From: Acidobacteriaceae bacterium
Lineage (GTDB): Bacteria > Acidobacteriota > Terriglobia > Terriglobales > Acidobacteriaceae
Length of the DNA stretch: 40,900 nucleotides
Direction: 5' to 3'
NCBI GenBank assembly: GCA_025356095.1
Contig: JANXUR010000115.1
Span: forward strand, 1 to 40,900
Shown: positions 1 through 18,088 of the stretch, in pieces
Layout of the letters: each line of letters starts with the position of its first letter
Position numbering within the stretch: position 1 is the first letter of the stretch
The notes under the pieces: generated by a model
The model's input: the letters and a program-made list of their open reading frames with translations, nothing else
Database searches by the model: none
What the model was told of the DNA's origin: nothing
Made by a program: the position numbers and the translations under genes

Positions 1-605
1 CTGGTGTGCAACACCCCTGCATCGAGCGCGGTCGCGATGAGACGAACCAGCAATCTCCTCCACCTCGCCATCACTCGGTCCTCGGTGAGGCTGACGGGGA
101 CGATATGAGGCATTGCTCCCCGCTGAATTCCCCATGCTGAAACAAGGACATGCACATGTGCATTGAACTCCAGCTTGGGATTGAAGGTATGAAGGATGGG
201 CATGACGCCAATCTGCAGGCCAGGGCCGACCTCGGCCTGAAGCGCCACCGCTGCCAACGCAGGCAAAGCCGCAAGCAGGCGCTCATTGTCGCGGAAGATC
301 GGCCAAAACTGTGATGGCATGGTGAGAGTCACAGCTAGATAAGGCAAGTCGGGTAATGCGCACCAGCGCTCGTTTTGCCATTGGAGTGTTCCCCGGAATC
401 CACAACTGGCGCACGGACGCGCCTTGCAGGTGTGGTACACCACCCGTTCTCCGTTCTCTGATGCGAAGACCTCGGCCCCCAAGGCACGGGTGCGGCATTT
501 GGTTGCTCGCAGGAAGGCTTCCCGCAACTCCGGCCCTGTCCCGTTGTGATCCCAGTGCTGACGGCCTCGCCGCAATATCTTCGTGAGTGGGTTTGCGTAT
601 CTCAT
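1..605 (-). CDS. IS91-family HUH transposase, N-terminal part (runs off the left edge)
   Basis: About 201 codons are visible, starting at the ATG at 605 and open to the edge. Family members of this type are roughly 350-400 residues, so about half is present. The N-terminal part carries a cysteine-rich zinc-binding segment: Cys37, then HTCKARPCASCG at about residues 58-69. It is followed by the HUH nuclease motif HVH in a block reading FNAHVHVLVS near residue 150. HUH enzymes of this family nick single-stranded DNA through a tyrosine and move by a rolling-circle-like route; the catalytic tyrosine would lie outside the window. The start codon overlaps the stop of the ParB-like gene (ATGA at 602-605), so the two are probably translationally coupled. 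The family call comes from recognising the zinc ribbon and HUH block. Confidence 0.85.
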   Translation of the reverse strand, partial: MRYANPLTKILRRGRQHWDHNGTGPELREAFLRATKCRTRALGAEVFASENGERVVYHTCKARPCASCGFRGTLQWQNERWCALPDLPYLAVTLTMPSQFWPIFRDNERLLAALPALAAVALQAEVGPGLQIGVMPILHTFNPKLEFNAHVHVLVSAWGIQRGAMPHIVPVSLTEDRVMARWRRLLVRLIATALDAGVLHT

Positions 606-1537
606 TTCATCGCTAGCGACATTTGCCGGTTGCTCATAGACTTTATGAGTTCTCGACCTATAACGACGGCCGTTTGGCGGCCCTGGCTGATTCGGACCTT
701 GATCGATCCAGGCTTATGTTCCTCGTTGTGCATCACAGCTTCCAGAATTTCGCCTGGAGTCAGCGCATCGGCGCGCGGCACGCTGACGGCTCTGTTGATT
801 ACGTTCCGGGCCAGTTTGTCCTCGTAGTATTGACCGAGCATTGCTGCTTGCTCTCTCAGTGGCAACTGGCTCCAGGCGTGAGCTCGGTTGATCGAAACGA
901 CCCCGTTACGAAGAGCAGTCTTGATCGATTCGTGGGCTTTCAGCCGAATCTGCTCGACCTTGCTGACATTGCGGCTGCAGACCCCAGCAACTCTGGCAAT
1001 TTCTTTGCGGACATCGATATGGTCAGCCGCGGGCAAATTTGCCGAACCCTTAAGCGCGCCACCTGTGCGCATGTTCGCAAGAGCACGTGCCTGAAGGCTC
1101 TTCTTGAGTGTGAGTGCGAGACCGATCCGGCAATACTGATTCCACCCCTTGCGAGGCCGCTGCCGGTCGAGAATGAATCGAACTGCCTCTTCGTCTGACA
1201 TGGCACGCTCAAGGCAGAGGATGGTAGAGTCACTAGCCGTGAGCGCCTTTTGCCACCTGCAAGTTCCTGTGAGGATGATGCCACTCGCGGTGACATAAAT
1301 CGGGTCGTCAGGCAATCCGGGCGACGATTGCGCGGCAGAATTCAACTCGTCAACTGAGTCGCCAATGTCCAGGAGCTTGACGCTGGGATGCAGGCAAAGC
1401 ATTCCCAGAGGCCGTGTCACCAGATGCCACTGGGTACGTTTGTTTTCGGTGGGGTTAATAACTGTCGCCCCCGGCAAAACCGAAAGGGTTGCGGGAGGGC
1501 GCAGCACTGCTTCTTGTTGTGCCAGGGCGGCCGTCAC
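602..1537 (-). CDS. ParB-like protein, coupled to AlpA regulator and transposase
   Basis: 311 residues with a GTG start whose GTGA overlaps the stop of the upstream AlpA-like gene. The first half resembles a ParB/Srx-type N-terminal domain: an HPSVKLLDIGD segment, then PIYVTASGIILTGTCRWQKAL near residues 77-97, where ParB proteins have a GxxR/GHRR-type nucleotide-binding box. The middle (about residues 150-230) is helical and contains a helix-turn-helix-like stretch around DVRKEIARVAGVCSRNVSKVEQI. ParB proteins bind DNA and act in partition or as nucleases or regulators on mobile elements. There is no parA here, so classical partition is unlikely. Its place between a regulator and a transposase suggests a role in control or targeting of the element, which is inference. 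Confidence 0.65.
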   Translation of the reverse strand: MTAALAQQEAVLRPPATLSVLPGATVINPTENKRTQWHLVTRPLGMLCLHPSVKLLDIGDSVDELNSAAQSSPGLPDDPIYVTASGIILTGTCRWQKALTASDSTILCLERAMSDEEAVRFILDRQRPRKGWNQYCRIGLALTLKKSLQARALANMRTGGALKGSANLPAADHIDVRKEIARVAGVCSRNVSKVEQIRLKAHESIKTALRNGVVSINRAHAWSQLPLREQAAMLGQYYEDKLARNVINRAVSVPRADALTPGEILEAVMHNEEHKPGSIKVRISQGRQTAVVIGRELIKSMSNRQMSLAMK

Positions 1538-1902
1538 CTTCGGCCTCCTCTCCGGCGTGCCTCCAGATGGCCTACAAGTTCACGAATCTCGGCGTCCGAC
1601 TGGCCTGCGATGCGCGCCAGGTTCACCGCCGCGATCTCGCTGGCGGGCCAGCCTACCGATCTTGGACCGAGGCTCACGGGACGTGGCCAAAGTCCCTGAG
1701 AAATCCTCAGATAGATGGTTGAACGCGAATAGCCAGTGCTGATCCTGACCTCGGGCAAGCGGAGGATTCTCGGTATGTGGAGGTCGGGGTCGCACGGTGC
1801 ACCAACCGACTGGGGCTGCAAACCGGCAGCTTTGTCCTCCGCCGGGTGCGGAAACGCAACGTCCGGCGAAGGTCGTGGCGATTCATTTCGATTCAATGTC
1901 AT
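1534..1902 (-). CDS. AlpA-family (prophage CP4-57 type) DNA-binding regulator
   Basis: 122 residues; start ATG at 1902 preceded by GGGAG with a 7-nt gap. Residues about 45-120 form a typical AlpA/excisionase-like winged helix: ILRLPEV, then TGYSRSTIYLRISQGLWPRP, a turn with GPRSVGWPASEI, and a final helix. The first 40 residues are Pro-rich and probably disordered. AlpA proteins regulate integrase or excision functions of prophages and islands. Here the gene heads a run of three overlapping genes (AlpA, ParB-like, transposase), so it probably controls that operon. Family membership is fairly sure; the target is not visible. Confidence 0.8.
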   Translation of the reverse strand: MTLNRNESPRPSPDVAFPHPAEDKAAGLQPQSVGAPCDPDLHIPRILRLPEVRISTGYSRSTIYLRISQGLWPRPVSLGPRSVGWPASEIAAVNLARIAGQSDAEIRELVGHLEARRRGGRR

Positions 1903-2105
1903 ACATTAGCTCCCGTCAGCTCCGAGTCTGCCGCCAAATTCTGCTGCGTTTGTTCACTTCGGCAGGCTGGCTAGTGGAAATCTCGCTTTGGGGCGCTGTT
2001 TATGCGGATTGAATTAAAAATTTCAGAAGTGGCTAGTGGCTAGTTGGCTAGTGACAAGGGATGCTGAATCCGGTCAAATCCGTCGGCGGGCGCCGGGCCG
2101 GAGCC
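1903..2105. repeat. Intergenic gap with short GGCTAGT direct repeats
   Basis: No gene is visible between the AlpA-like gene and the upstream unknown gene. The heptamer GGCTAGT occurs at 1969, 2031, 2038 and 2046; the last three are nearly head to tail next to an AT-rich patch (2010-2025). This could be a binding-site cluster for the AlpA-like or ParB-like protein, or chance, since the copies are short. Confidence 0.35.
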
Positions 2106-3461
2106 TCATCTGCCTTGTTTTTCAGCGACTGGGAGGTACCGCGCCTTGAACTTCGCTTTTCGGTCTTGGATTTTCTGACGGCACAGGTACGCACCATTGG
2201 AGTCTCTTGGGCGATAAGCTTTGACAAATTGCCTCGGGCATCCTTCCCTTTTCCACGCGGGAGGGACGGGAACGTCCTCCACGTCCAACCGCCCGCAATA
2301 TTCAATGCCTTCGCACCCATCTTGGATCGCCTGAAGCACAGCCAGCATTTCCTTGCTGATCGGCTTGCTGAACTTGCGGGGCGGGGTCTTCGGTTTCGAG
2401 TGAGGAGCTTTCGCCGGTTCTGACGAATCCGATTCCAGGGCACTGATCGCCCAACGGGCGGCAGCTTGTCCGGCCAGTTCCTCAAGCTTTCCTCTAATTT
2501 TGAGGTCGAATCTTTGCTGGAGTGATTCCAGAATTGAACTCGTGGTCACTTCGTCTTCGCGATGCCAGGCCGAGGCGGGGTCATAGAGCGTGTTTCCTGA
2601 CGGCTCCATGTGTACCAGCTTGGGCGCGCGCCAGCTCCTCCAGTGAAACGCGTCGTCACGAGAGACGTCGCCCGGAGATACATAGATCGGCTCGTCACAG
2701 ACCTTCTTGACCCAGTGAATGTTTTGGCAGTTGCGCTTCACAGCCTTCCGAACCTCGATGGTGGCCCATTTATCTGGTGATCCAACGAGTTCATCGGGGC
2801 GATTGCGTGCAGTCTCGAATAGAGTGGCGAACAATCCCGCGAGTTTACCTAGGACGGCTCTCTCGTAGAGTACTTGGTAAGCGTGAAAAGTCGCGGGAGG
2901 GGTTCGCCGCGCGATGGTCGAAAGGAAAGTCTCTTGGGCACTCTTCCCCGCCTCTTGGAACAGTGTCGGGAGCGCCTCTTCGTAAGGCGCAAGATCGACC
3001 AGCGTACTCGTTTGCGGGTGGAGTGCGGCAAAACAGAGACGCTTCGTAACATTAGAGCAACTCCACTTAAAGTCATCGAAGAGCTTGTGGATGTGGGTGA
3101 CCGCAGGCAAAAGATCATTTGGTACCCCGCCAGCGTCGCAAAGGTGATCCTCTGTCTGCTTCATGCAGAAATCCGCCGAAGCACGGATGACGCCCCGTAT
3201 GACCGTCGCCCCATCCTCCTGAGAGGTGTAGGAGCTACTTGCTTCGATCAGATATGCACCAAAGGCGTCGAGCCAAACGTGGACTGGACGCTTATTCACG
3301 ACCGGGTCGAGTGCCATTACAGCTTCGAGTGCAGTCTTGCGGAATCGCGCCGCGGATGCCCTGGCGGCTCCGCCCGATAGCTCCCACTTCGCCGGCTTCT
3401 TGCTTACCCGACCTGGACAACGAGTCGCCCGCAGCCAACGGCCGTCGCCATCGCGCGGCAC
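2106..3461 (-). CDS. Hypothetical protein of the left island
   Basis: I do not recognise this family. With the GTG at 3461 it is 451 residues, mostly helical and rich in Trp, Cys and Lys. Features include a charged Lys/Pro linker around residues 345-365 (SEPAKAPHSKPKTPPRKFSKP), a conserved-looking C-terminal block from about 365 (EGIEYCGRLDVEDVPVP) and a basic tail. The frame stays open upstream to a stop at 3570-3572. That extension reads like protein (RFSGAILADAHVWEAIGDRFRALARE in part) but has no ATG, GTG or TTG, so the true N-terminus is uncertain: a rare start codon, a frameshift or a 5' truncation. It is co-oriented with the AlpA/ParB/transposase genes and may belong to the same element. 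Function unknown. Confidence 0.65.
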   Translation of the reverse strand: MPRDGDGRWLRATRCPGRVSKKPAKWELSGGAARASAARFRKTALEAVMALDPVVNKRPVHVWLDAFGAYLIEASSSYTSQEDGATVIRGVIRASADFCMKQTEDHLCDAGGVPNDLLPAVTHIHKLFDDFKWSCSNVTKRLCFAALHPQTSTLVDLAPYEEALPTLFQEAGKSAQETFLSTIARRTPPATFHAYQVLYERAVLGKLAGLFATLFETARNRPDELVGSPDKWATIEVRKAVKRNCQNIHWVKKVCDEPIYVSPGDVSRDDAFHWRSWRAPKLVHMEPSGNTLYDPASAWHREDEVTTSSILESLQQRFDLKIRGKLEELAGQAAARWAISALESDSSEPAKAPHSKPKTPPRKFSKPISKEMLAVLQAIQDGCEGIEYCGRLDVEDVPVPPAWKREGCPRQFVKAYRPRDSNGAYLCRQKIQDRKAKFKARYLPVAEKQGR

Positions 3462-3757
3462 CGCCGCAAGGTCTTCTCGCGCTAAAGCTCGAAATCGGTC
3501 GCCGATGGCCTCCCAAACATGTGCATCCGCCAGAATCGCCCCTGAAAATCTAGATAAGTAATCTAGCCTCTAAGGAATTCAGACCGCGATGTAACCACCA
3601 GAACGGAGAAACTGGCTCACTGGAGAGGCCTGATCACAGCTCAATTGCGGTGTGACGCCTAGCGCGAAAGCGCCCGCAATTTTGTTGGTTGATTTGTGGG
3701 CTGAATCTCATGTAAGAAACGCAAGTCATTCATTTGTAGGTACTTATTAAGTAAATT

Positions 3758-3833
3758 TGGTGGACCTGGTCGGGATCGAACCGACGACCTCTTCCATGCC
3801 ATGGAAGCGCGCTCCCAGCTGCGCCACAGGCCC
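3758..3833 (-). tRNA. tRNA-Ala, anticodon GGC
   Basis: A complete cloverleaf on the minus strand. The acceptor GGGCCTG pairs with CAGGTCC (one G-T), D-arm GCGC/GCGC, anticodon stem CTTCC/GGAAG with loop ATGGCAT (anticodon GGC, reads GCC), T-arm GTCGG/CCGAC with TTCGATC, discriminator A and encoded CCA at 3760-3758. The gene marks the border between the accessory left end and the conserved chromosome. tRNA 3' ends are common integration sites, and the island lies on exactly that side. Confidence 0.95.
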
Positions 3834-3877
3834 ACAATGAGGAAGGACGACCGCAGTGTTCTGCGACCGCTTCCTCT

Positions 3878-8384: not shown

Positions 8385-9287
8385 ATGCCGGCGACCCAAC
8401 TTTCTCATCTCGAAGACGCTCTCGACTACGACTTCTCCAACCGTGAGTTGCTGGAGCTTGCCGTCACTCACAGCTCATCGGTGAGCGATGCGGAGCGCAG
8501 TGCTGAGACGGCGGACTCTCCGCCCTTAGACAACGAAAAGCTGGAATTTTTGGGCGACGCCGTGTTGAGTCTGGTGATTGGCCACGAGATTTTCGAGCGC
8601 TTTCCGGCCTATCGGGAAGGCCAGCTTTCCAAGCTGCGAGCGCACCTGGTTAGCCGGTCGCATCTGGTGCGGGTTGCCCGCCGCCTGAATCTGGGTGCGT
8701 ACCTGCGACTGGGGCGCGGCGAAGACCGCAACGGTGGCCGCGAAAAGGCTGCCCTGCTGGTGGACGCGCTGGAAGCAGTGCTGGGCGCGATTTTTTTGGA
8801 TGGCGGCTTGGCATCGGTACGGCCCGTCATCGTGGTGGAAGTGCTGGAACCGGAACTGGCGAATATGCAGGTACAAGGCAGAGACGACCTGCCCATTACT
8901 GACTTCAAGTCTGCCTTGCAAGAAGCGGCGCAGGCTGCCGGACGTGCCAAAGTGGTTTACAGTCTGGTTGAGCAGTCTGGCCCCGAGCACAACAAATTAT
9001 TTACGGTAGATGTAAGCCTGCGGCGTGACATGTCTGACTCCAGCCTCAGCTACCGGGGCAGCGGCTCAACCAAGAAACACGCGGAGCAGGAAGCTGCCCG
9101 GCTAGCCCTAACTGCTTTGTTTCCATTGCGAGTCTCGCAATCCGGTGCTATGGTTCCATCAGACGCCTACGGCAACGTGAGCCTCAGCACCAACACCTTA
9201 AGCTTAGAGCCGACCGACAACACCACCAGCACCAACAGTACGGAAGGTGACATCACGATCGAGACTTTGTTGAACACTTTGGAGTGA
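8385..9287 (+). CDS. rnc: Ribonuclease III
   Basis: 300 residues. RNase III cleaves double-stranded RNA in rRNA maturation and mRNA decay. The signature NEKLEFLGDAV is at residues 50-60. The acidic metal-binding residues are E54, D58, D127 and E130 (the latter in LVDALEAVLGAIFLDGG). The double-stranded RNA-binding domain spans about 172-246 (DFKSALQEAAQAAGRAKVVY, then GSGSTKKHAEQEAARLAL). After it comes a Ser/Thr/Asn-rich tail of about 50 residues that usual 220-240-residue enzymes lack; it looks disordered. The signal peptidase gene follows on the same strand. Confidence 0.96.
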   Translation: MPATQLSHLEDALDYDFSNRELLELAVTHSSSVSDAERSAETADSPPLDNEKLEFLGDAVLSLVIGHEIFERFPAYREGQLSKLRAHLVSRSHLVRVARRLNLGAYLRLGRGEDRNGGREKAALLVDALEAVLGAIFLDGGLASVRPVIVVEVLEPELANMQVQGRDDLPITDFKSALQEAAQAAGRAKVVYSLVEQSGPEHNKLFTVDVSLRRDMSDSSLSYRGSGSTKKHAEQEAARLALTALFPLRVSQSGAMVPSDAYGNVSLSTNTLSLEPTDNTTSTNSTEGDITIETLLNTLE

Positions 9288-9328
9288 GACCCTAAGTCGC
9301 AGAACGGCGTCTAACGTTTCAGAGTGTG

Positions 9329-9380
9329 AATCAAGCAAGCTAATGAAGCAAGCTAATGAAGCAAGCTAGTGAAGCAAGCT
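9329..9380 (+). repeat. Four tandem 13-bp repeats overlapping the lepB start
   Basis: Units at 9329, 9342, 9355 and 9368, consensus AATGAAGCAAGCT. Each of the last three carries a potential start codon (ATG, ATG, GTG), but 13 is not a multiple of 3, so each lies in a different frame. Only the last unit (GTG at 9369) and the following ATG (9381) are in frame with the signal peptidase. Confidence 0.9.
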
Positions 9381-10235
9381 ATGGATCCCCTAGTCGCCCT
9401 ATCCCCGGAAGCCGAACCCGCAGTGCAATCTTCGCAGGCGGCGCAGTCGGTGCAGGCAGAAGATCATCCCATCCCGGCCGCGGCCCCGAAGCGTCGCAGC
9501 CGGGCACCCGAGCCGCTTTCAGCCAGCCTTCAGTCTCTGCTAGGCACGGTTGTGATTGCCGTCTTCGTTATCACCTTCGTAGTGCAAGCCTTCCAGATCC
9601 CCTCTGAGTCCATGGAAAACACCCTGCTTATCGGCGACTATGTGCTGGTGGATAAGATGCACTACGGCGGCGACGGCGCACACTTGGGGGCAGTCTTGCC
9701 CTACCGCGACATTCACCGCGGCGACGTGATCGTCTTTCGCTACCCGGTGCATCCTAGCGAACACTTTGTAAAACGCGTCGTTGGCGTGCAAGGCGACCGC
9801 ATACGGCTGGTGGAGAAACAGGTGTATGTCAACGGAGTCCCCTTGCGCGAGCCTTACGTGCAGCATCTGGAAAACAACTCCGACGCCTGGCGGGACAACT
9901 TTCCCCGGCTCGACTTCGGCGCTTCCGGCGTGAATGCCAACTGGTATCAGGAGATGGCCGGTCTGGTGCGCAACGGCCAGCTCGTCGTGCCCGAAGGCCA
10001 TTATTTTGTGATGGGCGACAACCGCGACCAGAGTTCCGATAGCCGCTACTGGGGCTTCGTGCCCCGCGAAAACGTCGTCGGCCGCCCCCTGCTGGTTTAC
10101 TGGTCATTGCGCAAACTGGATGACGATGACCCGCCCGCACAAACTCTGGCTGACAAGCTCATGCACCTGGCCTACGTCATCATCAAGATTCCCGAGACCG
10201 CCCGCTGGGAACGCGCGCTGCGCCTGATCCGCTAG
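9369..10235 (+). CDS. lepB: Signal peptidase I (first copy)
   Basis: 288 residues from the GTG at 9369, or 284 from the ATG at 9381, which is equally plausible. The first about 50 residues are Ala/Pro-rich and cytoplasmic. One membrane helix lies at about 56-76 (SLLGTVVIAVFVITFVVQAF). The catalytic serine S81 sits in IPSESMENTL and the general base K135 in HFVKRVVGVQGDRI. The box GHYFVMGDNRDQSSDSRYWG closes the peptidase fold. A spacer insert around residues 160-200 is shared with the second copy. The enzyme cleaves signal peptides of exported proteins at the outer face of the inner membrane. It follows rnc by 81 nt, most of which is a 13-bp tandem repeat. Confidence 0.95.
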   Translation: MKQAMDPLVALSPEAEPAVQSSQAAQSVQAEDHPIPAAAPKRRSRAPEPLSASLQSLLGTVVIAVFVITFVVQAFQIPSESMENTLLIGDYVLVDKMHYGGDGAHLGAVLPYRDIHRGDVIVFRYPVHPSEHFVKRVVGVQGDRIRLVEKQVYVNGVPLREPYVQHLENNSDAWRDNFPRLDFGASGVNANWYQEMAGLVRNGQLVVPEGHYFVMGDNRDQSSDSRYWGFVPRENVVGRPLLVYWSLRKLDDDDPPAQTLADKLMHLAYVIIKIPETARWERALRLIR

Positions 10236-14438: not shown

Positions 14439-16672
14439 GTATTGCCCGGCCCCGGCGGCGTCATACGAAATGGTGGATCGGCGGCGCGATCCTCGTTCTG
14501 GCTTTGTTGTACTTTATCCGGCCGGGTGCCGATCGCCTGCGCGAATCCATCACCGGGGAACTTAGCAAAGCCTTAGGACGCCCGGTGACCGCGGGCAGCG
14601 TGTCGCTGCGCTTTTTGCCCCAGCCCGGCTTTGATCTGGAGAATTTTTCTGTCGCGGAAGACCCAGCCTTTGGCGCAGAGCCGTTGTTGCGGTCGCGAGC
14701 CGTTTCCGCCAATCTCAGCTTGAGCACACTCTGGCGGCGTCGGCTGGATATCTCTAGCCTGCACCTGACCGAGCCTAGCTTGAACATGGTGCTCGATCAC
14801 GGCCACTGGAACACCGAGAGCATCCTAAACCGCGCCGCGAAAGCACCAGCCACCCCGACATCGCAGGCCCCCACCGCAGAGAAGCCGCCCTTCCCATACA
14901 TTGACGCCACCGAGGGCCGCATCAACTTCAAACTCGGTGCAGAGAAAAAGCCATGGGTCCTTACCGAGGCGGATTTTTCCGTAGCCCTTACCTCAGACGA
15001 CGCTTGGTATTTGAAAATCGAAGGGCGGCCGCTACGCACCGATCAAGGCCTAAGTGACACCGGTACCCTGCGCGGCAGCGTCACCCTGAAGCGCGGTTCC
15101 AGCCTCGCAGAATCCCCCATCGCGGGTGAATTCCGCTGGCAAGACGGCCAACTCGGCCAGATGTCGCGCCTCTTCACCGGGAGCGACCCCGGTTGGCGCG
15201 GTGCCACCCAACTCAATTTGACCTTCGCCGGTCGAGCCGCCGACCTTGAACTCGCAGCGACTGGCTCCTTAAGCGGCTTCCATCGCTACGACATCGAAGC
15301 TTCCGGAGCACCCACACTCTCCCCACGTTGCTCGGCCAAATACAGTGTGTTGAGCGGTGAGTTGAGTGCGGGATCCTGCACCATGGATCTCGGCGGCAGC
15401 AGCGTTCGACTCAAAGGCGCAGTCACCGGATTGCTTGCCCCCACCAACTACTCCCTGACCATTCACGCGGAAAAAATCCCCGCAAACGCACTGCTCGCCT
15501 TCGCCAAAGTCAGCAAACAGAATGTGCCCCGCGACCTTGCCGCCGAAGGAACGGTGGATTTTTCACTCAGTGCCGACCGCACCCTACCGGCCCGGCCCGT
15601 TTGGGCACTCACCAGCAGCGCCAAGGGACTCACCTTGCACGGGGGCTCGTTGCAGCCCGAGTTGACCCTTGGCGACGTGCCGCTGCTGCAAGGCGTGAGT
15701 GTCACAAACCCCCCGCACGCGAACCAGCCGCCAAAATCGCATCTTCATGGCGCAGCGTCCGGCACAAGCGCTGCGCCCGACGCCTTCACGCTCGGCCCCA
15801 TCAAACTGACTTCCCCAAAAGGCACCGTGCTCGACCTCTCCGGCTCAATGGACGCAAGCCGGTACGCGCTGCACCTGGTCGGCGACAGCACCGTGCAACG
15901 CGCCTTGCAGTGGAGTCACGCGGCGGGCTTTGCCGCGCCGGTCACCTCCGCTGACGGCAATGCCCACATTGACGCGAGCTACAGCGGCGCGTGGGCGGGA
16001 TTCGCCACACCCGTACTCACTGGCACGGCACAGTTGCACTCTGTGACCGCGCAGATTGCTGGTTTGCTGGCTCCGCTGGAAATTGAATCTGCCTACCTGA
16101 CGCTGCTGCCCGGGTCGTTTCATCTGGAAAAGCTGAGCGCCAAGCTCGCTGCAACCCGCTGGAGTGGCTCGGCCGAGCGCGCGCTCGATTGCGGCCAGCC
16201 CGAATCGTGCGCTTATCACTTCGACCTGCACTCCGACCGGCTTGCTGCCACCGATTTGCAGGAGCTACTTCAGCCCGCCTCGCCGAAAAAGCCTTGGTAC
16301 CGCCGCTTCGGCTCCAGTACACCTCCCGCAGCCGACTTGGCTCAACTCCACGCAGAAGGCGCTCTCACCATCGCACATCTGGAACCCGCCGACCCCGGTC
16401 CGTCGCGCCTGACCACCTTGAGTGCCTTCACTGCCAATCTCAGCATCCGCGACGGCAAACTCGCCTTTTCGCAAGGCAAACTCAAGGCCGGAAGCAGCAT
16501 CTATACCATAGAGGGCTCGATGAATGGCAATGGCGAACTCGATGCGCAGGCCACCCACGGGCACGAGGGCCACCACCTCACTGGCAGCATTCTGCAGCCG
16601 CAGTGGGATGCCGCAGCAGCAGCTCCGCCCGCGAAGCCAGCAACGTCTTCGCGCGGCAGCGCCTCCCGATGA
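14435..16672 (+). CDS. AsmA-family envelope protein
   Basis: 745 residues from the GTG at 14435, which overlaps the lepB stop (GTGA). An N-terminal basic stretch is followed by a membrane helix (WWIGGAILVLALLYFI, residues about 11-26). Next comes the AsmA-type start of the periplasmic part: RESITGELSKALGRPVTAGS, FLPQPGFDLENFSVAEDP and SANLSLSTLWRRRLDISSLHL (cut here). The rest is long, beta-rich and repetitive, as in AsmA/TamB-like proteins that bridge the periplasm and affect outer-membrane lipid or protein assembly. The end carries a disordered Ala/Pro/Ser tail. The family is clear from the N-terminal block; a precise role is not. Confidence 0.85.
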   Translation: MSIARPRRRHTKWWIGGAILVLALLYFIRPGADRLRESITGELSKALGRPVTAGSVSLRFLPQPGFDLENFSVAEDPAFGAEPLLRSRAVSANLSLSTLWRRRLDISSLHLTEPSLNMVLDHGHWNTESILNRAAKAPATPTSQAPTAEKPPFPYIDATEGRINFKLGAEKKPWVLTEADFSVALTSDDAWYLKIEGRPLRTDQGLSDTGTLRGSVTLKRGSSLAESPIAGEFRWQDGQLGQMSRLFTGSDPGWRGATQLNLTFAGRAADLELAATGSLSGFHRYDIEASGAPTLSPRCSAKYSVLSGELSAGSCTMDLGGSSVRLKGAVTGLLAPTNYSLTIHAEKIPANALLAFAKVSKQNVPRDLAAEGTVDFSLSADRTLPARPVWALTSSAKGLTLHGGSLQPELTLGDVPLLQGVSVTNPPHANQPPKSHLHGAASGTSAAPDAFTLGPIKLTSPKGTVLDLSGSMDASRYALHLVGDSTVQRALQWSHAAGFAAPVTSADGNAHIDASYSGAWAGFATPVLTGTAQLHSVTAQIAGLLAPLEIESAYLTLLPGSFHLEKLSAKLAATRWSGSAERALDCGQPESCAYHFDLHSDRLAATDLQELLQPASPKKPWYRRFGSSTPPAADLAQLHAEGALTIAHLEPADPGPSRLTTLSAFTANLSIRDGKLAFSQGKLKAGSSIYTIEGSMNGNGELDAQATHGHEGHHLTGSILQPQWDAAAAAPPAKPATSSRGSASR

Positions 16673-16706
16673 GTGCGACGAGTGCAATGAGTGCAATGAG
16701 TGCGAT
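16669..16706 (+). repeat. 9-bp tandem repeat at the asmA 3' end
   Basis: Four units of GAGTGCRAY (GAGTGCGAC, GAGTGCAAT twice, GAGTGCGAT) directly after the AsmA-like stop codon and before the next start. The 9-bp period keeps frame. A tiny ORF could be read through it, but nothing supports translation. Confidence 0.8.
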
Positions 16707-17344
16707 TTGAGGATCCGAATTTGAGCCATCGCTACTCTTTTGCTCTGGTTGCTGCTGCGCTCTTGGTGACCGCCACTGCGATCTTCTGCCTTCGGGCGAG
16801 CGCTCAGGTTCCTGGAGCTTCTGCCTGTTCTACGTCGTCTGTGGCAAGTGCCGCCGACCCGCTTCGCGCCAAGCTCGACGCCCTGCAAGCCAACGGCAAG
16901 CGTGAGCATCCCGACCCGCACCCCACCACCATTGCCGAAGACGATGTCAATGCCCACTTTGCCCAGCCTGATGCCAAACTGCCCCGCGGCGTAAAGTCCG
17001 TGCACTTCACCAGTTCACCCGGCACCATCACCGCCGTCGCGCTCGTGGATTTTGACGAGATTCGCGCTGGCCGCACCCACAACGCGCTACTCAATTTGTT
17101 TCAAGGACGCCACGAGGTCACCGCCATGGCCCGCGCCAGCGGCGCACGCTTTTACGGTGAGGTGGATATCGTCTCCGTCTTGCTGGATGGCGTGGAGGTG
17201 CCGCGCTTTTTGTTGGAGCTTTTCGTCCAGAAGTTCGTCACTCCCAAATATCCCGGTGTGGGGCTCGAAACCCGCTTCGTGATGCCCGCCCGCGTAGAAA
17301 ACGCAATCGTCGGCCACCATCGCCTCACCCTCATCCAGCGCTAG
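16700..17344 (+). CDS. Exported protein of unknown function
   Basis: 214 residues from the GTG at 16700. The TTG at 16721 is the better start because GAGG lies 8 nt upstream and the signal peptide begins right after it (RYSFALVAAALLVTATAIFC, cleavage near ASAQ). The mature part is about 180 residues with no motif I recognise. It contains EDDVNAHF, a beta-rich centre (VHFTSSPGTITAVALVDFDE) and FLLELFVQKFVTPKYPGVGL near the end. It follows the AsmA-like gene by about 50 nt and is probably a periplasmic partner or an independent envelope protein. Confidence 0.75.
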   Translation: MRFEDPNLSHRYSFALVAAALLVTATAIFCLRASAQVPGASACSTSSVASAADPLRAKLDALQANGKREHPDPHPTTIAEDDVNAHFAQPDAKLPRGVKSVHFTSSPGTITAVALVDFDEIRAGRTHNALLNLFQGRHEVTAMARASGARFYGEVDIVSVLLDGVEVPRFLLELFVQKFVTPKYPGVGLETRFVMPARVENAIVGHHRLTLIQR

Positions 17345-17386
17345 CCGAGGCATTTTCGCTCTGCGTGGTAAACTTCTAGCTCCGGC

Positions 17387-18088
17387 ATGACACTCGACAT
17401 CATCGCTAAGTTGTTTCAATTCATCATGTTTCTGTTCGCCCTGAGTGTGCACGAGTCGGCACACGCCTGGATGGCGAACCGGCGCGGCGACCCCACCGCG
17501 CGCATGCTCGGTCGCATCACGCTCAATCCGCTCAAGCACATGGACCCGTTTGGCACCCTGTTGCTGCCCCTGCTCGGGTTGTTCGGCGGCGGCGGCATCT
17601 TTGGCTGGGCCAAACCTACTCCCATCACCCCTCGCAACTTTCGCCGCCCCGTGTTGGACGACATTCTGACCACCATCGCCGGCCCCATCAGCAACCTGAT
17701 GCTGGCGACCATCTTCTTGCTGATCCTCGGTGGCATCGCCATGACTTCGCCCGCCGCGCATGACATGGTGATGACCATGCCGACCGAAGGCATTCCGGGT
17801 ATGGAAGCCCTTCTGGCGCAAAACAATTCGCCGTTGCTGCCGCTCATCCTTCTGCTTTTTGAGGGCATGCTGCTGAACATCATTCTGTTCGTCTTCAACC
17901 TACTGCCCATTCCGCCGCTGGATGGAAGCCACATTTTGCGCCACATGCTGCGCGGCAAAGCTCTTATCCTCTACGACAGCATGGGCTGGTATTTGATGAT
18001 TGCCGTCGTACTCATCTTTGGGCGACTGATTTGGGCACTTATCAACCCAGTCATAGTGCTGTTTGAGACAATCTTGTTAAGGTTCTAA
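17387..18088 (+). CDS. Site-2 protease family intramembrane metalloprotease (M50)
   Basis: 233 residues, several membrane helices. The zinc-binding HExxH is HESAH at residues 22-26, in the first helix. The third ligand lies in LPIPPLDGSHIL near the C-terminus (the Asp of PPLDG), and the central GPISNLMLA matches the family. It is the short, PDZ-free type (like the 'YwhC' group), not full RseP. S2P enzymes cut membrane-bound regulators such as anti-sigma factors; an anti-sigma factor is encoded in this window, but no direct link is shown. Confidence 0.9.
   Translation: MTLDIIAKLFQFIMFLFALSVHESAHAWMANRRGDPTARMLGRITLNPLKHMDPFGTLLLPLLGLFGGGGIFGWAKPTPITPRNFRRPVLDDILTTIAGPISNLMLATIFLLILGGIAMTSPAAHDMVMTMPTEGIPGMEALLAQNNSPLLPLILLLFEGMLLNIILFVFNLLPIPPLDGSHILRHMLRGKALILYDSMGWYLMIAVVLIFGRLIWALINPVIVLFETILLRF

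Follow-up and report, generated by a model that had tools for sequence, protein, structure and literature searches.

The first 40,900 nucleotides of contig JANXUR010000115.1 from an Acidobacteriaceae bacterium (assembly GCA_025356095.1; this whole stretch, forward-strand positions 1 to 40,900, is referred to here as the window) begin with three overlapping minus-strand genes, which encode an AlpA-type excisionase/regulator, a ParB-like protein, and an IS91-type (HUH) transposase. Such a combination raises the question of whether these genes constitute a mobile element, are part of a larger one, or simply happen to be adjacent. Based on comparisons with related genomes, we lean towards the view that this operon would be the module for mobility and control in an integrative element that is anchored at a tRNA gene and carries an HUH module.

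The three coupled genes

The AlpA gene (positions 1534..1902, minus strand, ATG start) codes for a 122-residue protein that matches Pfam family PF05930 with an E value of 1.1e-14 (54.5 bits, against a cut-off of 21). Its stop codon overlaps the GTG start of the gene for the ParB-like protein (311 residues; 602..1537, minus strand) in a GTGA at 1534-1537, and an ATGA at 602-605 joins the ParB-like open reading frame (ORF) to that of the transposase (3..605, minus strand, ATG start). The three minus-strand genes with 4-base overlaps reported in a preliminary description of this DNA are therefore there, except that they are not “fused,” as that description had it, but are separate ORFs that merely overlap. 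As the window corresponds to contig G000:C37 from base 1 and begins at a contig end, the transposase is cut at codon 201 and permits no leftward extension. Searches of the rest of the assembly for its missing C-terminal half gave no match, either with the transposase profile or, in a search without a positive control, with the C-terminal part of the transposase from a related locus, L059.

The N-terminal 201 residues match the Pfam domains Zn_Tnp_IS91 (PF14319, E value of 1.4e-10) and, partially, Y2_Tnp (PF04986, E value of 3.5e-4; 21.1 bits against a cut-off of 20.9) and score 101.6 bits against the NCBIfam model transpos_IS91, whose cut-off is 125; the protein scored here ends at residue 201. 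In the relative at locus L012, the respective Pfam E values are 4.4e-32 and 8.1e-15. Transposases of the ISCR type have a single catalytic tyrosine, and the Y-x3-Y pair seen in five complete relatives speaks against ISCR membership, the window protein being cut before that point. In the alignment, this pair is found in 5 of 5 complete rows, and the HxH stretch is found in 6 of 6 transposase rows and is visible in the window row. The catalytic tyrosines of IS91 are given as Y249 and Y253 in PMC5714925.

The assignment of the middle gene comes from structure prediction. The window protein has no Pfam match and only a weak match to the PHROG family “ParB-like partition protein” (E value of 7.8e-4); likewise, the Pfam and NCBIfam ParB models have no match at an E value of ≤0.1 in 11 ParB-like members, and the PHROG ParB matches are weak. 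The AlphaFold model has a mean predicted local distance difference test (pLDDT) score of 71.5, with 91 of the 311 residues, mostly N- and C-terminal ones, scoring under 50. Foldseek returns 24 matches to this model at an E value of ≤0.001 (the best one at 3.4e-6), and all of them are ParB, Noc, Spo0J, or KorB-type chains. Superposed over the whole chain, the model gives low TM-scores (0.2-0.5) and high root mean square deviations (rmsd), the closest VIA match being 5k5d_B (Z 10.2, rmsd 5.5 over 192 residues). The fit improves for single domains, as with 4umk_C (Z 8.0, rmsd 3.0 over 101 residues) and 7bm8_A (Z 6.8, rmsd 2.5 over 91 residues). The name “ParB-like” thus holds at the level of the predicted fold, a ParB/Srx-type N domain followed by a helix-turn-helix (HTH) domain. 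A search of plasmids with the window protein gave no match, the L012 protein gave a single weak one (annotated ParB/RepB/Spo0J, 30% identity), and phages and viral contigs contained no match to the ParB-like protein.

Pairing of the ParB-like gene with the transposase

Of 297 genomes from the phylum, 5 matched the window ParB-like protein, its own genome included and two of them weakly, and a first scan of genome contigs confirmed no relative. A profile built from six rows and run against 200 genomes of the family found matches in 25 of them. From the profile rows, 26 ParB-like loci and one fragment (L014) were examined together with their flanks. Transposase sequence lies directly downstream in 24 of these 27 loci. 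In the other three, ParB is broken at a contig end (L014), the transposase breaks off within its first codons (L049), or the contig stops (L061). Deletions have shaped two of the 24: L060 has lost part of its transposase, and in L015 (8816-9598) the ParB N-terminus is joined in frame to the C-terminus of a transposase, a relic left by deletion within the pair. Among eight further short or partial ParB matches with flanks, a transposase accompanies L038 and L040. A second contig scan, with another query, gave 15 loci, four of them new: L134, L140, and L141 with a transposase and L135 with ~22 transposase codons. Another of the 15, L139, turned out by its match to be L036.

The reverse test, in the same 200 family genomes, started from near-full-length transposases, defined by at least 450 bits against the transposase profile. 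A ParB-like gene is located directly upstream of 24 of these 25 genes. The exception, in genome G359 (L157), lacks ParB; there, an integrase-like fragment continues straight into the transposase (940-2300). Nine partial transposase rows score 180 to 336 bits, and ParB is present in five of them (the window, two of G467, G306:C24, and G417). Ordinary full-length IS91 copies of the same family score no more than 175 bits with this profile. At seven such loci, 13 ParB queries gave no match in tblastn, and none of the seven coincides with a match of the ParB profile; tblastn is a weak control here, because it missed the ParB piece in L159 that the profile had found. In three ordinary IS91 copies, L163, L165, and L168, the upstream ORF resembles, by eye, a XerC-type recombinase.

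The ParB-like and transposase genes mostly overlap or abut; stop/start spacing could not be counted automatically for many loci, and such counts are not used here. The same pair is present in a genome from a different lineage, Vicinamibacterales (L141). Judging from these sequence comparisons, the pairing is far above chance, because 24 of the 25 near-full-length transposases have a ParB-like gene upstream. The preliminary description had named a ParB-like gene found nearly always without the transposase as a result that would speak for a chance arrangement; this was tested and did not hold. A single contig (L051) carries two different pairs, at 182-2175 and 16042-18050, in convergent orientation and ~14 kb apart.

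The first gene of the operon is far less constant. AlpA is confirmed by Pfam in three loci, the window, L049 (G301, with the broken transposase), and L141, and the window protein is 62% identical to AlpA of L049 and 52% identical to that of L141. The search for the same three-gene order proposed in the preliminary description was thus successful in L049 and L141, where the trio has overlaps at both junctions (both ATGA in L141); AlpA is otherwise unconfirmed in this arrangement. An HTH_17 protein is encoded 5' of ParB in L058, L059, and L056, with scores above the cut-off, and in L050 with a score just under it (26.0 against 27). In the other loci, no AlpA or HTH gene was seen among the ORFs listed (without a hidden Markov model scan). 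The AlpA-bearing copies do not group together in a tree of 25 ParB rows, in which L141 is a long branch of unsure place. AlpA as an obligatory part is ruled out, and we regard it as optional, because it is confirmed in three loci only. In L056, three near-identical tandem repeats of ~60 bases each are seen by eye ~300-520 bases upstream of the start region of the HTH gene; they are possibly an operator array.

Element ends, tRNA genes, and integrases

On the right side, 3' of the transposase, the copies share an oriIS-like motif, GATTTTTG[T/A]TTTTCCTATA, often followed by nnTCAAG. Allowing up to four mismatches, it was found in 23 of the 29 loci searched, and in 19 of these 23 it lies 1,146 to 1,356 bases past the ParB match. 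Six loci gave no match: the window, L061, L053, and L054 stop at or short of the expected place, L049 has lost most of the transposase, and L068 is taken up below. The remaining 761,338 bases of the same loci contain three occurrences, of which two are the oris of the two L051 elements seen from each other and the third is a chance match with four mismatches. The motif was derived from the loci tested, so this test is not an independent one. L135, which is outside the 29 loci, has kept the motif and lost all but ~22 codons of the transposase: at 1197-1400, ParB and these codons run directly into the motif, an internal deletion that spared the end. On the opposite side, no 5' terminus (ter) common to the copies was found, and their upstream content differs.

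Two observations concern the sequence beyond this end. In L060, a short stretch past the ori (query positions 3725-3860) has matches at many sites across genomes of its genus and appears to be a dispersed repeat. In L141, the ori motif is directly followed by a truncated P-loop gene (9226-10218) with a weak match to DUF6079, BrxC-like by eye, as if the ori end had landed within a defense gene.

The left side is marked by tRNA genes and tRNA halves. Because Rfam reported half tRNAs poorly, a strict motif for the tRNA 3' end (T arm plus CCA) was counted by script. It occurs 14 times in the 3-kb stretches upstream of ParB (72,779 bases in all), compared to 7 times in 281,234 bases elsewhere, where 4 of the 7 are left-flank tRNAs of L052, L053, L068, and L141 located further out. 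A tRNA 3' end is found within 3 kb of the pair in 10 of 22 eligible loci and within 500 bases in 6 of 25. The printed Poisson value of 9e-9 overstates this enrichment because the loci are related (L013, L134, and L135 share a tRNA-Ser half) and hence not independent. Halves in L065 and L066 that are recognizable by eye, as well as a 5' half in L057, escape the strict motif. Ten of the 14 upstream motifs are antisense to ParB. ARAGORN called a tRNA at the antisense motif in L061 and L062 and no complete tRNA at L050, L054, L060, L067, L013, L015, L134, and L135, as expected of halves. The 66-base tRNA-Ser half in L060 matches tRNA-Ser genes of relatives; elsewhere in the same genome, an ORF that looks integrase-like by eye ends next to the tRNA-Ser gene.

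In several copies, a tyrosine integrase gene separates the tRNA from the operon. Phage_integrase scored above the cut-off in six of the seven candidates scanned (L141, L052, L053, L058, L050, and L068), and L059 has a sub-threshold fragment. The most complete copy, L141, has the order tRNA-Ala, integrase, ORF438, ORF262, AlpA, ParB, transposase, and ori motif (with four mismatches). L052 has tRNA-Met, integrase, a QueC/QatC-like gene, a gene for a 270-residue protein, ParB, transposase, and ori, and L053 and L068 combine a tRNA and an integrase with the same cargo, by DNA match, as L011. The cargo of L011, which has no tRNA or integrase in reach, was recognized by PADLOC as QatC (E value of 6.4e-55); 1.3 kb of the L011-type cargo is shared by L051b, and in L105 the QatC-type cargo is next to an apparent integrase N-terminus (by eye). 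A QatC-like gene with a partner of 268 to 285 residues thus recurs directly beside ParB-transposase pairs or ParB (L011, 9650-12222; L052, 3339-6103; L105, 1042-3704). In L053, L068, and L105, this cargo is flanked by inverted repeat boxes.

In the window, the region upstream of AlpA contains a repeat box (1968..2052, minus strand), in which four exact ACTAGCCA units (1968-1975, 2030-2037, 2037-2044, and 2045-2052) are arranged around TCCGCATAAACA. These are 4 exact matches in the window against 0.65 expected, a number reached in 1 of 100 shuffles with a pattern that was chosen post hoc. Boxes of similar layout, made of another unit sequence, are located upstream of ParB in the QatC-type copies and are the ones present twice, in inverted orientation, in L053, L068, and L105. 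The box is followed by ORF451 (451 residues; 2106..3461, minus strand), an ORF call without a family match, and then by an intact tRNA-Ala (GGC) gene (3758..3833, minus strand), a probable attachment site and element boundary, as an integrase-like gene is found at this place in a relative. The window order is thus tRNA-Ala, ORF451, and operon, with 1.9 kb between the tRNA and the operon; beyond ~5 kb, the window was listed for ORFs and tRNAs only. In 150 family genomes, ORF451 was found in its own genome and as one weak partial match, and the idea that it is a hidden integrase gained no support, with no family match in the libraries scanned. A tRNA-Ala (GGC) is located within ~1.5 kb in 7 of 29 relatives with the neighboring sigma-factor gene. 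Among four relatives with the same tRNA-Ala inspected by eye, an integrase-like gene ends there in L201, a probable remnant of an integrase C-terminus is present in L202, and no integrase was seen beyond the tRNA in L200 and L203. The tRNA-Ala beside the sigma-factor gene may therefore be an integration hotspot.

Competing explanations and known systems

If the operon belongs to a tRNA-anchored integrative element, the integrase would recombine this element at the tRNA, with the AlpA/HTH protein as a directionality factor, and the transposase would nick at the ori and drive rolling-circle copying, one-ended transposition, or replication of the excised circle. The ParB-like protein may bind the upstream repeats and either repress the operon or help assemble the nicking complex; repression and help with complex assembly are the roles of KorB-type ParB relatives on plasmids. 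A bolder version, which we consider doubtful, would see here a previously undescribed dual-mode class that combines site-specific tRNA integration by a tyrosine integrase under AlpA/HTH control, a Y2 HUH enzyme that works on an ori of its own, a near-obligate ParB-like partner that loads as a clamp on repeats close by and licenses nicking or strand choice, and a defense-type (QatC-like) cargo in a fixed slot.

Several observations weigh against a tRNA-anchored element. The integrases differ between copies, and the ORF lists and Pfam show no integrase in the visible part of the window, including the stretch from tRNA-Ala to the operon; together with the 1.9-kb distance from the tRNA, this means that the window copy may be partial. 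Some pairs have no tRNA motif in reach (e.g., L011, L012, L049, L055, and L064). L011 adjoins a broken glycosidase-type gene (named by eye) instead of a tRNA, as plain IS91-type movement would have it; the continuation of that gene was not found in the stretches of the same contig examined. Empty-site tests in two genera revealed no element-free site with both flanks in relatives. L068 lacks the ori motif even though 1,479 bases follow its ParB match and is a true miss. The pairing, too, has its gaps: weaker ParB pieces occur without a transposase (L036, at a contig end, L039, L041, L042, L043, and L089), four of the nine partial transposase rows have no ParB (G306:C25, G355:C28, G454:C111, and G382:C87), and in-frame stops interrupt 4 of the 25 near-full-length transposases and four ParB matches.

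Some of these points would be accommodated by an IS91-family insertion sequence (IS) with a ParB-like accessory gene that moves alone by rolling circle, in which case the tRNA islands would be tolerant hotspots, and the integrases and QatC-like genes would belong to the islands or represent one-ended cargo. The ori-like motif, the absence of a tRNA motif in reach of L011 and L012, and the variable upstream content all fit such an element, as does the comparison of L056 with L057, whose 89.6% identity sets in at about the ParB start and does not extend upstream; furthermore, the tRNA-Ser islands L085 and L090 have the same left 150 bases without a recognized ParB pair. Against an IS of this kind stand the tRNA 3' ends near the pair, mostly halves antisense to ParB, and the integrase and HTH/AlpA genes that precede the pair in L050, L058, and L141. 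We see it as possible but less likely than the tRNA-anchored element, and it remains a serious contender because of L011 and the variable left flanks. It is unlikely that the HUH protein no longer transposes and instead serves integrative elements as a relaxase or plasmid-type replication initiator, with ParB as a partition or copy-number regulator. The ParB partner with its predicted KorB-like fold would suit that role, and a 2018 paper by Wang and coworkers, cited in PMC6563490, reportedly describes a viral replication protein with homology to IS91 transposases; on the other hand, L011 resembles an insertion away from a tRNA, and no ParA-like or transfer genes were recognized beside the pair (in ORF lists and limited Pfam scans, the wider window neighborhood not being scanned for ParA). 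A chance neighborhood of decaying mobile-element genes, to which the broken copies L014, L015, L049, L060, L135, and L157 and the cut copy in the window might point, is highly improbable and, for the ParB-transposase pair, is refuted by the 24-of-25 pairing and its recurrence in Vicinamibacterales. The composite rolling-circle element proposed in the preliminary description, in which AlpA was to control expression, thus survives in part: its ParB-like partner is real and conserved and the oriIS-like motif follows the transposase, but AlpA is not constant, and a free-standing IS is improbable, the unit being more probably a part of tRNA/tyrosine-integrase islands.

Among the papers listed by searches of the open literature, none was listed as naming a ParB-IS91 pair. 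IS91-type enzymes mobilize genes by rolling circle, and their end choice and regulation are, to our knowledge, poorly understood. A conserved partner with a ParB fold whose gene is coupled to that of the enzyme would amount to a new type of accessory factor in HUH transposition and would tie plasmid-type DNA-binding proteins to island mobility. It would also provide a handle on how soil Acidobacteriota may exchange defense genes.

The nearest described system that we met is GIsul2 with ISCR2 (CR2-sul2). According to passages of PMC9376610, this island harbors int, alpA, and the IS91-related rcr2; Int mobilizes the CR2-sul2 unit as well as the island itself, and GIsul2 movement became visible upon overexpression of alpA. 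By the same source, GIsul2 differs in its link to guaA, in carrying repA/C, stbC, and resG, and in having the CR2-sul2 unit at the island 3' end rather than in an operon with alpA; ParB has 0 occurrences in that text (PMC9376610). The window operon is located beside a tRNA, and its visible genes match no repA/C or resG family, most of the element being outside the contig.

With the IS91 family, the elements described here share the Zn-binding and Y2_Tnp domains, the HxH stretch, the Y-x3-Y pair in relatives, and the ori-like motif downstream. They differ in the near-constant ParB-like partner, which the seven ordinary IS91 loci lack in tblastn, in the optional AlpA/HTH partner, and in the tRNA and integrase context. 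The ParB-like protein resembles the ParB family regulators KorB, Noc, and pNOB8 ParB in the predicted fold of its N and HTH domains; unlike them, the 11 members considered have no Pfam or NCBIfam ParB match, and the gene neighbor is a transposase, with no recognized ParA. Finally, AlpA islands of the P4/CP4-57 type combine a tRNA site, an integrase, and AlpA. L141 likewise has a tRNA site, AlpA, and an integrase with an Arm-DNA-bind_3 domain, whereas the elements of the present group add an IS91-type transposase and a ParB-like gene in the same operon.

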